Shown here: positions 3,842 to 32,591 of the stretch, one piece after another
How positions within the stretch are numbered: the first letter of the stretch is position 1
Layout: every line of letters starts with the position of its first letter
Origin: Burkholderiales bacterium
GTDB lineage: Bacteria; Pseudomonadota; Gammaproteobacteria; Burkholderiales; Burkholderiaceae_B
DNA length: 64,000 nucleotides
Assembly: GCA_027484315.1 (NCBI GenBank)
Contig: JAIXTE010000089.1
Coordinates: forward strand, 1-64,000
Reading direction: 5' to 3'
The notes under the pieces: model-generated
What the model was told of the DNA's origin: nothing
What the model saw: only the letters and a program-made list of their open reading frames with translations
The model's database searches: none
Translations under genes and position numbers: made by a program

Positions 3842-6800
3842 TCAACCCACCTGCATTTTGAGCCCTCGACTCGGCTCGGGTTTCCTAAGATCGGTTTTTA
3901 GCGAGTCTAAGACGGCAAGGTCGTTGAGTTTTTCATCCCTCACGATATCGCTATGATAGATAACGGATTTCTCCATGAGTTGGTACTTTTCGGTTCTCGA
4001 CGAACTTAGCCAGTTAAAGGATCCGGATATCATGACGTCATCGTCAATGTATATGACTTTCTGGTGCATCTTATTCACGAGGCCCACTTTTGCGCCGGCT
4101 GATTCTAGTTCTTGTAAAACGACAGCAAATTCATCTTCGCTATAGTTCTGAAGATTAGAATCCTTAGCTAAAAAGATTTGGACATCAACGTTGCGGTTTG
4201 ATGCGTCAGCAATCATTTCAAGGATTCCATCGGACTCCATGACATGCCTTGTGATCCACGGACTAACTATCATCAGGTTGTTCCGCGCCATCTTGAATGA
4301 ATTGCTAAGGGCTTGTCTGTGACCCTCTAGATTCGAGATGAATTCCGGCGGGGTTTTTGTGTTAATCGGCTTTATTAAGTCATCTCTTAGGAGGTTCTCA
4401 ATTGGTATTTTTATCTCGTTTGACGGCTTCGAAAATAGATACTTTCCGAGCAGCGAGGATGGCTTACCCTCGCGCAGCGAAAAAATAGTGGTGTCCCCAA
4501 ATACTAAGAAGGCATCCTTCGCGCGGCTAACTGACACGTTGAGCATGCTGGGACTTTCATCAAAAAAGAAGTCAGATTCTCTGTCATGTTTTGAGTAGAC
4601 AGGGCTAAACAGAACGATTGGTTTTTCTGCGCCCTGGAGTGAATGAACTGTGCCGACCGTGATATCTGAGATGTCTTGGTTTACATCAACATTTAGCCCC
4701 ATACTTTTGTAAGTTTCGCCGAGCGCTATCTTAAGGTTTTCAGGGCCTTCGGACAAAAGCTTTTTTATCAAAGAAGACTGAGGACGGAAAGGTGTAATAA
4801 TTGCGGCAATTTCACTTAACTTCTTTTTATAGTCATAAACTAATTTTGGAGCGTTGCTCAAAATCCAATGAGCTATCATTTTCGCTTCAAGTGTGTTGAG
4901 CCTTGACCCAGCGTCTGGACGATCACTTTTACCAGGTATATGCGCATAGCCCATCGCGGGAAGCCTTACCAGCGATCTCTCGTCATCTTTTTTGGACCCG
5001 CGCATAGGAATGAGCTTGTTTTGATAACAGAGCTCGTTACAAAAAGCGATGAGGTCATCATACCCCCGCCTGTGCTCATAGAGGTGAAGGCCCGGGGCAA
5101 GAGATAAGTCGGAATGCAGTCGAGATGCATTTTGGGCGATCTTCATGATGCTTCCGGAACTCGACGAAAATCCAGAGTTTTCCAGATCTATAAAATTGAG
5201 ATCCTCGCTTATAAGTCCAGCGGATTCTGCGTTGCAGAAGTCCATTCCTTTGGTCACCGACCACACTGGCTCAATTTGAAACGTATCGCCAACGACAAGA
5301 GCCTTTTTTGCAAAAGCGAAACCCGTTATGCCCACCTCGGGTGTAACCTGCCCGGCTTCGTCAACAATAAGAAGGTCAGCAAAGTTAAAGGCGATCGAAT
5401 TCTCAAGCCTGTTTTTGAATGAGAAATATTTTGGTAGGGAATGGAAAGTAGAAACAAAACAGGGCGTCAACATTGCGCGCCTTCCATATATTTTCTGCAA
5501 CTCCGACTCGCTGAAGGGTTTGCCAAAATATGTTTTGTCTGGATTTCCCGCCCACAAAGTGGCGTTCATTTCCTGTAGCCATCGGGCTTCCCAATAATGG
5601 GTGGCCAATTTGAAAAGGGGCTGTCTTATTTTAAAGTCGGCGGCCCGGTCAAGAGCTTCGATCTGAATAGAGTCAGGATTCTCAATTCCCAGTTTTCGGG
5701 CTGTGAGAATGAGCTCCTGCTTTGCCTCGTTTAAAAGTTGTGAGTTGTGGTCAAGCGTGCCGGCGAAATTAGATAGTAAGAGAGCGTTTTTTTGGCAAAT
5801 CTCAATACAATTGGACAGAATCGATTCGAATTCTTCCGGGGAAACAGTGATCTCGGATAGGTGAGAAATCTCGGAAAGCCTATAATCCTCGATCAGAGCG
5901 TTGATGAATTCCTTCAGTTTTCCTGCTGGGAATCCCCTGGATACAAGACGAGGATCCAGGATAATCGTTTTGTAGTCCAGCCATTCCTTATGCGCGACCT
6001 CGTACGTCTCCTGCCTTGACTGCAGCTCAAAGGCCTTTGCCCTAGCTGAATCAGGCTCCATGAAACCCAAGCACCCCTCAGTTCTAAGCTGTTCAACTTT
6101 ATGGCGTGCTGAAGAGAGAATTTCGATTGAGTCTTCTATGCCTTTTAAAATGGACCAGCCTTTTTTTAGCGAGGTGGACATGATGGCAGTTGCCTGGGAT
6201 AGGGTTGTATCGTCCTCCCGTTTAAAGCATTTTTTAAACCTCGCTAAAAAATTCTGTATCGTCTTATCCTTATCGGAGGACTCCAGGGCATTAACTTTTG
6301 AAAGGTCAAAAAAATCTGTCTGGGAATCCCTGAAATAAGTCCCGTACGAATCCAGTCCATCAATCCATCGTCCATAAAAGCTTGAAGCGGGATTCTCCTC
6401 TATGGAGGAAAAGGAGGTCAGGATGTTTGTGACCGCCTGGTTGTTTGTTGAGCAGGCAACTGTTATGGGGGGATATCTATCGCCGCGGATCGCAGATTGA
6501 ACCCAGTTAGAGGCAACGACGCTCTGCAGCAGAGTTGTCTTTCCCGTTCCCGGCGGGCCGTTTAAAGTCAGGACCTCCCCGTCTCGCAATGTTCCCAAAT
6601 TGGTCAGAGCAAGGCGCTGAGCGTCAGCCAAAGGAAAACTAGGGCTCATATGGCCTGCTCTAACCGCCATAGCGTCACATGCCGGTTTTACCTGGGCGAC
6701 ATGTTCAAGCCCATCCCCACGGAGCATGGTAGAAAGCAAAGGGGCGTCCTTTCCCTTCAGCAGATTTCGTTCAAGCTCGTCGTAAACAAATTCAAGATTT

Positions 6801-7399
6801 TGGGTTATGGAGGTGACGGCAGGGCAAAGCTGAACGCTGGAGGACCTTTCGTAGACACTGTTTTTTTCCAAAAACTCTGAGCAGACTGCATCCTGCATAG
6901 CAGATACGTATTCTAGGAGGCCTGCAATGGATTCCGCCTTCCATGGACTGGAAACAATAAACCTATCGAAGTCTTCAAAAGTCCCCAGTACAACATTTGT
7001 AAAGGAGCCCTCCGATGTCATCTTGTTTGCAAGCAACCCCTTTTGAATAATTGGTTGCGTAGAGGATACCGAGATGGAGCCATCATTTGAGAGTACAAGT
7101 TCAGCAGTGGCGCAGTAGATCTGATGAGGCAAGTTGCGATTGCCATCAAATTGTTTTTTGACAATTTTACCCAGATACGCGGTTACGCGTACCTCTTTGA
7201 CAAATTCAGACCCCCTTGAAAATCTGTGGAACTCCTCTTTTGTTATCGAGGCCGACAAGCTTTCATCTGACAGAGCCAACTCTACGGGGGCGATGCCATC
7301 ACGTACGGAAGGGTAAAGAGGAGGCTCCCCAGAAAGAGATTTTCTGAGGTAGGCTAATTTTTGTATAAATTGATCCCGGTTCGACATACTTGAGTCCAT
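3842..7399 (-). CDS. Superfamily 1 (DNA2/NAM7/Upf1-like) helicase with C-terminal phospholipase D-like domain
   Basis: Walker A LNGPPGTGKTTLL, DEAGQ Walker B, VGTVHSLQGAEKPIV and LNVSVSRAK motifs; C-terminal HQKVIYIDDDVMISGSFNWLSSSR is an HKD motif. Confidence 0.85.
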   Translation of the reverse strand: MDSSMSNRDQFIQKLAYLRKSLSGEPPLYPSVRDGIAPVELALSDESLSASITKEEFHRFSRGSEFVKEVRVTAYLGKIVKKQFDGNRNLPHQIYCATAELVLSNDGSISVSSTQPIIQKGLLANKMTSEGSFTNVVLGTFEDFDRFIVSSPWKAESIAGLLEYVSAMQDAVCSEFLEKNSVYERSSSVQLCPAVTSITQNLEFVYDELERNLLKGKDAPLLSTMLRGDGLEHVAQVKPACDAMAVRAGHMSPSFPLADAQRLALTNLGTLRDGEVLTLNGPPGTGKTTLLQSVVASNWVQSAIRGDRYPPITVACSTNNQAVTNILTSFSSIEENPASSFYGRWIDGLDSYGTYFRDSQTDFFDLSKVNALESSDKDKTIQNFLARFKKCFKREDDTTLSQATAIMSTSLKKGWSILKGIEDSIEILSSARHKVEQLRTEGCLGFMEPDSARAKAFELQSRQETYEVAHKEWLDYKTIILDPRLVSRGFPAGKLKEFINALIEDYRLSEISHLSEITVSPEEFESILSNCIEICQKNALLLSNFAGTLDHNSQLLNEAKQELILTARKLGIENPDSIQIEALDRAADFKIRQPLFKLATHYWEARWLQEMNATLWAGNPDKTYFGKPFSESELQKIYGRRAMLTPCFVSTFHSLPKYFSFKNRLENSIAFNFADLLIVDEAGQVTPEVGITGFAFAKKALVVGDTFQIEPVWSVTKGMDFCNAESAGLISEDLNFIDLENSGFSSSSGSIMKIAQNASRLHSDLSLAPGLHLYEHRRGYDDLIAFCNELCYQNKLIPMRGSKKDDERSLVRLPAMGYAHIPGKSDRPDAGSRLNTLEAKMIAHWILSNAPKLVYDYKKKLSEIAAIITPFRPQSSLIKKLLSEGPENLKIALGETYKSMGLNVDVNQDISDITVGTVHSLQGAEKPIVLFSPVYSKHDRESDFFFDESPSMLNVSVSRAKDAFLVFGDTTIFSLREGKPSSLLGKYLFSKPSNEIKIPIENLLRDDLIKPINTKTPPEFISNLEGHRQALSNSFKMARNNLMIVSPWITRHVMESDGILEMIADASNRNVDVQIFLAKDSNLQNYSEDEFAVVLQELESAGAKVGLVNKMHQKVIYIDDDVMISGSFNWLSSSRTEKYQLMEKSVIYHSDIVRDEKLNDLAVLDSLKTDLRKPEPSRGLKMQVG

Positions 7400-7506
7400 G
7401 ATCTATTTTGCTGCAGTCAAAACGGTTTATGCAAAGATTTCCGATCACAATTTTCAGTTATTGATATTTTGTTGCTTTATGTGTATGATTAATGATGGAG
7501 GTCATA

Positions 7507-8109
7507 ATGAAAAGTCATTTCATCAATTTATTGGCTGAGGCACTAAAGAGCTTAAGGGCCGACGAATCCTTTTTTTCCGCAGGGTTGGTCTCGTATGTTG
7601 AGCAAAAGGGGAATATTTCAGTTGCCCTGGACTTCTTTAACGATAAAAACGGGATAAGCGCGAATACTCAGTGGTCTGATTCGATCGAAAGAATAAAAGA
7701 TATTTCGACTTTTAAGAGTGGTTCCAAGCCCATAATGTTCTTTCAAATACGAGCAGTAAAACATACGGGACTTAGCTCTGAACCTCATTTGATATTGATC
7801 AAATCAATACATGAGAAGATAGGCCTATCGCTGCTGGAAGTAACATTGATTATGGAGGAATCACGAGAGACGGGTTTCTTTGTAAATTACCCGGACAAGC
7901 AAATAACCTTCCCATACATAGAAAGCTTATATCTTGAGACACTGGAAAGTTTCTTGCAGTCCGAATCGCTGAAGAAGAGGATCCATAGAACAGAGGAGCC
8001 TGAGGATCTGCTGTTCCACAGATTCGTCTCCATGTATCAATCGGGAGAAATGTCGGACAAGGGCTTCTATAAAAATTTTGACGTAACAAAATTAATTCGA
8101 CAACACTAA
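7507..8109 (+). CDS. Hypothetical protein
   Basis: about 200-aa ORF; GGAGG RBS 5 nt before ATG at 7507. Confidence 0.6.
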   Translation: MKSHFINLLAEALKSLRADESFFSAGLVSYVEQKGNISVALDFFNDKNGISANTQWSDSIERIKDISTFKSGSKPIMFFQIRAVKHTGLSSEPHLILIKSIHEKIGLSLLEVTLIMEESRETGFFVNYPDKQITFPYIESLYLETLESFLQSESLKKRIHRTEEPEDLLFHRFVSMYQSGEMSDKGFYKNFDVTKLIRQH

Positions 8110-29961: not shown

Positions 29962-30360
29962 ATAGTTGTCGTCTTGTTAACAGTTGGAAACAAAAATGGC
30001 TCTATAAACTCAAAAAAATACAGGCTCTGGACTGATACTCAGAACGTTTTCACTTGGATTCAACTTAATTCAGTAGGTTTACACACTGTAACAATCTTGA
30101 ATATTTTTGAGCAACATCTATGGGTCTATAAATGCAGAATTTGTCGGGTTTCCGACATTTGACACTTTAAGTGCCACTATATCGCGGTCAAAATAAGAAG
30201 AATTACTACGTATTTTTACTCAATCGATAGGATAGCAGACAAAAATCGGCTATGTGCAAGAAGTGGTTGGAATTTGATTGGTCAAATGGACCGTAAAAAC
30301 CTGTCTTTGGTTGGAAACTATCCGTTACACCTAATTTGGTGCACTTTTAAAACACCAAGC

Positions 30361-30786
30361 TTAGGACGATCTCTCAACCCAGTCCTGCACCATCAGACCA
30401 GGAACCCGAGAGAATTCTCCAATATTGTTGGTCACCAAAACACATTGTTCAGACAGGGCATGGCCAGCAATAGCAACATCATTGATCCCAATGGGCGTAC
30501 CTAACGTCTCCAAGGTTTTTTTGAGAATGGCTGCGTGCTCGACAGCCTCACGGTCCCAGGGAAGCACCCCATCCATACGTTCAACAAATTCATGCACAAC
30601 GTGTATCAGTTTTGGAGAGGCTTTTTTGCTATTGGCACCATAAAGCAGTTCTGCATAGGTGATGGCCGAAATAACAAGGCGACTGCGCGACTGAACCATT
30701 TCTTTGAGCCGATGCAAGACGCTGACTGGCTTTTCACGAATAATGAATGAGCAGATGTTGGTATCCAACATGTAGACGTTTTTCAC
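30361..30786 (-). CDS. vapC: VapC PIN-domain ribonuclease toxin
   Basis: MLDTNICSFIIREKP...ISAITYAELLYGA...GTPIGINDVAIAGHAL...LVTNNIGEFSRVPGL. Confidence 0.93.
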   Translation of the reverse strand: MKNVYMLDTNICSFIIREKPVSVLHRLKEMVQSRSRLVISAITYAELLYGANSKKASPKLIHVVHEFVERMDGVLPWDREAVEHAAILKKTLETLGTPIGINDVAIAGHALSEQCVLVTNNIGEFSRVPGLMVQDWVERSS

Positions 30787-31010
30787 AGCACCACGCGCCC
30801 TAGCTCAACCACGCTGGGGCGTTCAATCAAGAAGTCTGCATCCGCTTTTTCAATAGATGCGAAACTTTCCCAGCTCTTGCGAACTGGGCGCAGTATAAGG
30901 GCATCACCATCACGGGTGATTTCCAGTTCAGAGACGCCCTCAAACTCGAATTCTTTGGGCAAACGGATCGCTTGGTTTCGTCCGTTTTTAAACAATGAAA
31001 CAGTTCTCAT
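30783..31010 (-). CDS. vapB: VapB AbrB-like antitoxin
   Basis: MRTVSLFKNGRNQAIRLPKEFEFEGVSELEITRDGDALILRPV; overlaps vapC start. Confidence 0.92.
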   Translation of the reverse strand: MRTVSLFKNGRNQAIRLPKEFEFEGVSELEITRDGDALILRPVRKSWESFASIEKADADFLIERPSVVELGRVVL

Positions 31011-31253
31011 GCCAGTACTCCTGTTGTTTAGACTTAAGCTTGACACCTCACATGGCATATGTCAAGCATATGCTCAATGATTTAGGCGCAACTTCTAGGT
31101 GCAGTTCAACCAGTTTTTGCACAGTACAGACGGTTTGACAAATCCAGAAAAAACAGGCTTCCAACCACTTATTGCACATGGCCCAAAAATCTTGTGAGAC
31201 CCCCACCCAAACGCGGGGTAGGAAAAAAAGAGACAAATTGTCAGCTTTCTTAT

Positions 31254-31280
31254 TAATCACTCAGAAGATGATGCCGTAAA
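31254..31280 (+). promoter_or_regulatory. Candidate sigma-28 (FliA) promoter of the first flagellin gene
   Basis: TAATCACT-N11-GCCGTAAA vs consensus TAAAGTTT-N11-GCCGATAA; exact 11-nt spacing, about 90 nt upstream of the ATG. Confidence 0.5.
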
Positions 31281-31367
31281 CCGAGTCATGCAGAGCAAGC
31301 GAATTTCAAACGCGACTGCACCAATTACTCAACAGTAAAACGACATCAAAAACACAGGAGTGTCAAA

Positions 31368-32591
31368 ATGGCCCTAGGCATCAATACCAACGTTCAGTCA
31401 CTGATCGCTCAGAAAAACTTGTTCCGCAGCGGATCTTCCCTCTCAACTTCGATCGAGCGCCTGTCTTCGGGTCTGCGCATTAACAGCGCACGTGATGATG
31501 CAGCCGGACTGGCAATCTCGGAGCGTATGAGCGCCCAGTTGCGCGGCATGGAAGTTGCGAAACGCAACGCCAACGACGGTATTTCTGCGCTGCAGGTGGC
31601 CGACGGCAACCTTTCTTCCTTGGGTGACAGCCTGCAGCGTATGCGGGAACTGGCAGTTCAGGCATCAAACGGAACATTGAGCGCGGACGATCGCGAAAAC
31701 CTGAATCTTGAATTCATCCAGTTGTCCGAAGAATTGAGCCGAGTTGCAGGTGGCGCTGAATTCAACGGCGTACAGTTGCTCAAAGGCGACGGTACGACCC
31801 CTGGCACCCAGTTGATGTTCGAACTGCAGATTGGTTTTGCCTCTGACTCTCAACTGAATATCGCCTTCGATGACGTAAATGCGTTCATCGACACTTTCCG
31901 CGAGGGCCAAGAATTGGTTACTGGCCTTACTTCAGCCGACGGCACCGACATTACTCTTGGTGATCTGGGTACTCCTGCTGTGGTCGGCGGCGTTGGAACA
32001 GAAGACCTGACTGACGCAACGTCTTTCACTGGCACTTTGGACGTTGATCTGGATGCTGACGGTGTTGGTGATTTCACGGTAACAAGCGACGGCACCCAAT
32101 TCACCAAGGTTGGCGGTACAACTCTTGTGGCGGGATTGACTGATTTGAGCGCGGTTACCCTGGGTGAAGTTGGCCTACAGCCAGTTGACGGTACACAGTT
32201 GTCTCCATCATATTTCAATATCGGCGGCACATTCCAGATCCAATTGGCCACGGATGGGACGAACGTAACTACCGTCAACGCGACAAGCAAACTATCGGGC
32301 CAAAATGGTTCGACGGCTCAATCCGTGTTGGACAAGATCGACTCACTGTTGGATACGGTGAACAACCAACGCGCCACATTGGGTGCCGGTATCAACCGCC
32401 TGGATGCTGTTATCAACAACCTGGAAACCTCTCTGGTTAACTTGGGTGCAGCTCGCGGCCGTATCGTTGATGCAGACTTCGCTCGCGAAACTGCCAACCT
32501 GACACGTACGCAGATCCTGCAGCAGGCTGGTACCGCCATGTTGGCGCAGGCGAACCAGTTGCCAGCCAACGTGCTGTCACTGCTTGGCTAA
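31368..32591 (+). CDS. fliC: Flagellin
   Basis: MALGINTNVQSLIAQKNL...SSGLRINSARDDAAGLAISERM...; C-terminal NLGAARGRIVDADFARETANLTRTQILQQAGTAMLAQANQLPANVLSLLG. Confidence 0.97.
   Translation: MALGINTNVQSLIAQKNLFRSGSSLSTSIERLSSGLRINSARDDAAGLAISERMSAQLRGMEVAKRNANDGISALQVADGNLSSLGDSLQRMRELAVQASNGTLSADDRENLNLEFIQLSEELSRVAGGAEFNGVQLLKGDGTTPGTQLMFELQIGFASDSQLNIAFDDVNAFIDTFREGQELVTGLTSADGTDITLGDLGTPAVVGGVGTEDLTDATSFTGTLDVDLDADGVGDFTVTSDGTQFTKVGGTTLVAGLTDLSAVTLGEVGLQPVDGTQLSPSYFNIGGTFQIQLATDGTNVTTVNATSKLSGQNGSTAQSVLDKIDSLLDTVNNQRATLGAGINRLDAVINNLETSLVNLGAARGRIVDADFARETANLTRTQILQQAGTAMLAQANQLPANVLSLLG

Follow-up and report, generated by a model that had tools for sequence, protein, structure and literature searches.

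We describe a 936-bp unit of a Burkholderiales genome in which vapBC, a toxin–antitoxin (TA) operon, lies between ISL3-type ends. This unit is very probably a non-autonomous mobile insertion cassette whose passenger is the TA pair and which an ISSm4-like ISL3 transposase mobilizes in trans. It occupies positions 30248–31183 of the window, that is, of the whole stretch of 64,000 nucleotides that was analyzed. TA modules are plainly mobile, but it is often unclear by what route a small one passes from one chromosomal site to another. In the genome studied here, a probable source of transposase occurs together with two different TA cassettes bearing the same ends, and several insertions are marked by duplications. 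Having the whole set in a single genome makes both the trans-mobilization of TA modules and a possible stabilization of satellites by addiction directly testable.

Boundaries of the unit

The unit is delimited by 25-bp terminal inverted repeats (TIRs) identical at 23 of 25 positions, and the octamer CAAAAATC is present on both sides as a target site duplication (TSD) of 8 bp, as in elements with ISL3-family ends. An earlier note on this DNA had claimed such TIRs, abutted by a perfect 8-bp duplication, at 30240–31191, and we could confirm both; random windows contain nothing comparable. When the whole window was scanned for spans of up to 3 kb with 25-bp ends and an 8-bp direct repeat, the vapBC unit was the sole span reaching 23/25 and 8/8, the runner-up scoring 16/25 and 7/8. 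The same scan of six Markov-1 random windows gave a maximum of 17/25 and 7/8. Searched as a pattern, the TIR is matched twice in the window, versus 0.00 matches expected, and the ends recur at 10 further places in the genome. We give practically no credit to the explanation that an inverted repeat and an octamer surround an ordinary chromosomal vapBC by chance, which the recurrence of the TIR in the genome and the random-window scan refute.

As the earlier note had also stated, vapB and vapC are the only recognizable genes: profile searches found no further gene family inside the unit. Lacking a transposase of its own, the unit is therefore a cassette and not an IS. The coordinates of its features are compiled in Table 1.

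Table 1. Features of the vapBC cassette (window coordinates) and copies of the mazEF cassette
Feature	Position	Strand	Remarks
Left 8-bp target duplication CAAAAATC	30240..30247	.	abuts left TIR
Left TIR (end B) GGCTATGTGCAAGAAGTGGTTGGAA	30248..30272	+	
Subterminal half-repeat GGTTGGA, end B	30309..30315	+	position 62 from end
vapC	30361..30786	-	141 aa, GTG start; PIN-domain tRNA(fMet)-endonuclease-type toxin
Passenger block: vapBC and ~70 bp upstream	30377..31080	-	homology to vapBC of two TIR-less relatives
vapB antitoxin, starts MRTVSLFKNGRNQ	30783..31010	-	AbrB/MazE-type DNA-binding domain; ATG at 31010
TTGACA...TGTCAA inverted repeat upstream of vapB	31040..31065	.	candidate operator/promoter, read from sequence
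End A module	31101..31183	-	80-82% identical to right end of mazEF cassettes
Second TGTGCAAN5GGTTGAA repeat, end A	31105..31123	-	positions 61-79 from end
Right TIR (end A) GGCCATGTGCAATAAGTGGTTGGAA	31183-31159	-	
Right 8-bp target duplication CAAAAATC	31184..31191	.	abuts right TIR
mazE/mazF cassette copies	L015:2069-2750; L016:1301-2236; L018-L022		

The vapBC passenger

The passenger has the layout expected of a type II VapBC system, a PIN toxin with an adjacent antitoxin whose gene comes first; the two genes share 4 bp at the start of vapC. VapC is a PIN-domain protein (PF01850, 3e-14) that aligns along its length with solved tRNA(fMet)-specific VapC proteins, 6ifc included. VapB is MazE/AbrB-like (PF04014, 6e-11; the search was run on the frame from 31013, the ATG being that at 31010). 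NCBIfam names the two proteins VapC and VapB, VapB scoring over its model cut-off and VapC under its own. A sigma-70 scan upstream of vapB detected no consensus promoter; expression of vapBC is predicted from the inverted-repeat region listed in Table 1.

By its VapC and VapB families, and by the alignment of VapC with 6ifc and other tRNA(fMet)-specific VapC proteins, the pair is like chromosomal and plasmid vapBC operons of the enterobacterial type. It differs from the vapBC copies of the two relatives checked, both of the same family (G028 and G002; DNA identity 71% and 67%), in that those lie outside such TIRs. Homology to these copies is limited to element positions 126/130–833, and positions 854–936 match instead the right end of the mazEF cassettes described below. 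Where these alignments end shows that the cassette joins ISL3 end modules to an independent vapBC operon.

An ISL3 transposon with the same ends

Allowing 0–3 mismatches, the TIR pattern was found at 12 places in the genome (G000, 155 contigs), and the reversed pattern used as control at 0. Besides the two TIRs of the vapBC unit, these comprise the ends of an element in contig C120, those of an element in contig C33, and six copies at contig ends. The C120 element (C120:14955-25872, corresponding to L017:1956-12873) is 10,918 bp long, has matching ends and is flanked on both sides by the perfect TSD TTAATTAG. Its genes are hsdM, one for a RhuM/Fic protein, hsdS, three small ORFs and hsdR, followed directly within the right end by a gene for an ISL3-family transposase of 433 aa (PF01610, 1.1e-55; PF13542; PF14690). 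The element is thus a transposon carrying a type I restriction–modification (R-M) system. The TIRs of the vapBC unit hence match those of an element encoding an ISL3 transposase. No other intact ISL3 transposase was found in the genome, with the reservation that the assembly has an estimated contamination of 5.4% and contig C120 could in principle derive from another organism. The second PF01610 match, a 401-aa frame, reads by inspection as a protein resembling fatty-acid desaturases and ending in an ISL3-like tail. As to the remaining genes of the C120 element, the RhuM/Fic protein corresponds to the PADLOC candidate PDC-S23, and two of the three small ORFs match no family.

The nearest plasmid relatives of the C120 transposase are of the ISSm4 family (69% identity) and are encoded directly behind type I R-M genes (hsdMSR). 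ISKpn25, of 8154 bp, is a named ISL3 element with an R-M operon as cargo (PMC8796155). Transposons of the ISKpn25/ISSm4 type have transposases 64–69% identical to that of C120, hsdM-hsdS-hsdR ahead of tnp, GGCTATNTGCA...GGTTGAA ends and a second TGTGCAA...GGTTGA repeat at end A. The vapBC unit differs from them in being 936 bp long, in having no transposase, and in carrying vapBC in place of the R-M genes.

The likeness between the elements extends beyond the 25 terminal bp. At end A of each of them, TGTGCAA-N5-GGTTGAA appears again at positions 61–79, 55–57 bp inside the first copy. At end B, GGTTGGA alone is repeated, at position 62 in the vapBC unit, 63 in the mazEF cassettes and 73 in the 10.9-kb transposon, whose end B is the one next to the transposase gene. 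This asymmetry is common to the vapBC cassette, in which end A is at the right and end B at the left, the mazEF cassettes and the R-M transposon. The vapBC unit thus shows the subterminal repeat layout of the ISSm4 group, and end A is recognizable as well in Azospira (with a perfect TSD), Burkholderia and ISSm4 elements. From this common subterminal architecture we infer that the same kind of transposase reads all these elements.

The earlier note had likened the ends to those of IS1595/ISXO2-type elements. The ends of the unit do begin with GGC, the duplication is of 8 bp, and the genome has an IS1595-family transposase gene, at a distance of less than 0.8 kb from the C33 mazEF cassette. That gene, the sole PF12762 match of the genome, belongs to an IS in contig C33 (L023:1014-2059) which has its own perfect 8-bp duplication (AATTGTTC) and ends (GGCTCTGTTAGCGTTTCGTA / AGCTGTGTTAGCAATTCGTG) unlike those of the vapBC unit, starting with GGCTCTGTTAGC... 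and not with GGCTATGTGCAATAAGTGGTTGGAA. As the transposase bracketed by TIRs of the vapBC type is instead of the ISL3 family, the IS1595/ISXO2 assignment was abandoned, and we regard an IS1595-type cassette as very improbable. The IS1595-family IS is located 674 bp upstream of the C33 mazEF cassette.

Sister cassettes carrying mazEF

A second cassette on ends of this kind, carrying mazE and a PemK/MazF-like toxin gene, is present at five or more sites of the same genome, its copies having near-identical ends. The C33 element (6800–7735) is also of 936 bp and is flanked on both sides by the TSD GAACATTC. Two further sites are split by contig breaks: ATTTATGC flanks both the C6-left and the C113-right copy, whose overlap is of exactly 119 bp, and TTTTTATT flanks both the C92-left and the C11-right copy. 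Matching 8-bp duplications are therefore found at three mazEF sites, at two of them across contig breaks. The octamers of the C149-left (GTTTATTT) and C142-right (GAAATTTG) copies do not pair. Because the flanking octamers differ from site to site, the mazEF cassette, as far as can be read from its flanks, has moved repeatedly. Identity between the C33 cassette and the pieces in C6 and C113 is about 89%, whereas the left ends of C6, C92 and C149 are identical across the 117 bp present, which suggests that some movements are older and others more recent. In C33 the mazF-like gene contains a frameshift; in the pieces from C6 and C113, which were read apart and unjoined, its frame is open. When the motB-side flank of the C6 copy was compared with relatives, short matches alone were obtained. 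Six contigs of the assembly end within the mazEF cassette; such cassettes fragment assemblies.

The earlier note had proposed a transposed, non-autonomous unit with a TA passenger, to be given up if these ends occurred on no further copy and on no related IS. Further elements with these ends, an ISL3 transposon among them, were found, the same ends enclosing other cargo between other perfect 8-bp duplications, which supports that proposal. An alternative is that the vapBC unit arose by deletion from an ISL3 transposon that formerly held both vapBC and a transposase gene of its own, and is now an immobile fossil. A fossil would fit with the single copy of the vapBC cassette found in the genome, with the two positions at which its TIRs differ, and with its having little in common with the other cassettes outside the 83-bp right end. 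We nevertheless consider it unlikely. The unit has a perfect TSD, neither its end designs nor its genes are damaged, and its sister cassettes, which are built alike, have moved more than once.

Distribution outside this genome

The end patterns were searched in 269 genomes belonging to the family, in another 368 from the class and in another 398 from the phylum, and were found in none other than the genome studied here; this subtype of ends is therefore rare. A TIR scan of a collection of genomes of 84,980 species revealed one further place, in Acidithiobacillus sulfuriphilus (NZ_RIZI01000150.1). The unit found there (L052:1775-2540) is 766 bp long, lacks a transposase, has the second repeat at end A and carries a gene for a VapD endoribonuclease (6.5e-39 to 6zn8). 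Its flanks, GGAAAAAC and GGAAACCC, match at 6 of 8 positions only. VapD being a third kind of RNase toxin, this unit hints that capture of TA-type cargo on these ends may be recurrent, faintly so because it is one example with an imperfect duplication. The other TIR-like matches in A. sulfuriphilus are single ends without a clear partner. Between two such outward-facing, ISL3-like single ends of this species lies a MazEF-like pair, named so by ORF reading (L089:4327-4955).

No match to the 100-bp end A was obtained in plasmids. Viral contigs gave two matches: a remnant of an R-M transposon (L057) and a cargo-less MITE. The latter (L099:1073-1215) is of 143 bp, with ISL3-like ends and a TSD matching at 7 of 8 positions.

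Proposed mobilization and relation to known systems

Mobile insertion cassettes (MICs) consist of IS-type ends and passenger genes, have no transposase and are activated in trans by a cognate transposase (PMC3129680, PMC4133298). The vapBC unit is built likewise: TIRs, a TSD and passenger genes, no transposase, and a partner transposase in the genome. As to its mobilization, two ISSm4/ISKpn25-like ISL3 end modules would enclose the complete operon, and an ISL3 transposase acting in trans, in this genome most likely that of the C120 R-M transposon, would recognize the 25-bp ends and the subterminal repeats. It would then move the cassette into AT-rich DNA, making the 8-bp duplication. Since vapBC retains its own upstream region, it would probably be expressed at the new site, and cells losing the cassette would be killed or arrested by the toxin, favoring its retention. 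The assignment to the C120 transposase, the direction of derivation and the addiction benefit are what we infer from the elements present.

Type II TA modules, among them a PIN–AbrB/MazE pair, are repeated passengers of Tn3-family transposons (PMC7157771). Unlike the vapBC unit, those transposons are autonomous, have ends of 38–40 bp and carry the TA genes next to the resolution site; our unit is ISL3-ended, lacks a transposase and has nothing but the TA pair as cargo. With its 25-bp GGC ends, its 8-bp TSD and no tnpA, it is not a Tn3-family TA transposon.

ISL3 transposons with R-M passengers, MICs and TA passengers in the Tn3 family are hence already known (PMC8796155, PMC3129680, PMC4133298, PMC7157771). 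A full-text search of openly licensed papers returned no description of ISL3-ended cassettes with TA passengers, and in the literature found no MIC combining ISL3 ends with a TA passenger is described; the novelty of TA cassettes on ISL3 ends is a lead, not a proof. Tentatively, and with somewhat less than even confidence, we propose that pairs of ISSm4-type ISL3 ends act as a modular carrier and have taken up addictive cargo several times, R-M genes in the autonomous element and vapBC, mazEF-like genes or vapD in the satellites. Addiction would hold the satellites at their new sites and so compensate for the absent transposase.

Insertion site

The left flank of the vapBC unit has no match in 60 relatives, none of which is close enough to show an empty site, and the DNA upstream of the flagellin genes of relatives has no left-flank gene in common with the window. 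The cassette lies 184 bp upstream of a flagellin gene (window 31184–31368), and a sigma-28-like sequence, GCCGTAAA, at about 31273 would, as read from the sequence, remain intact beside it.
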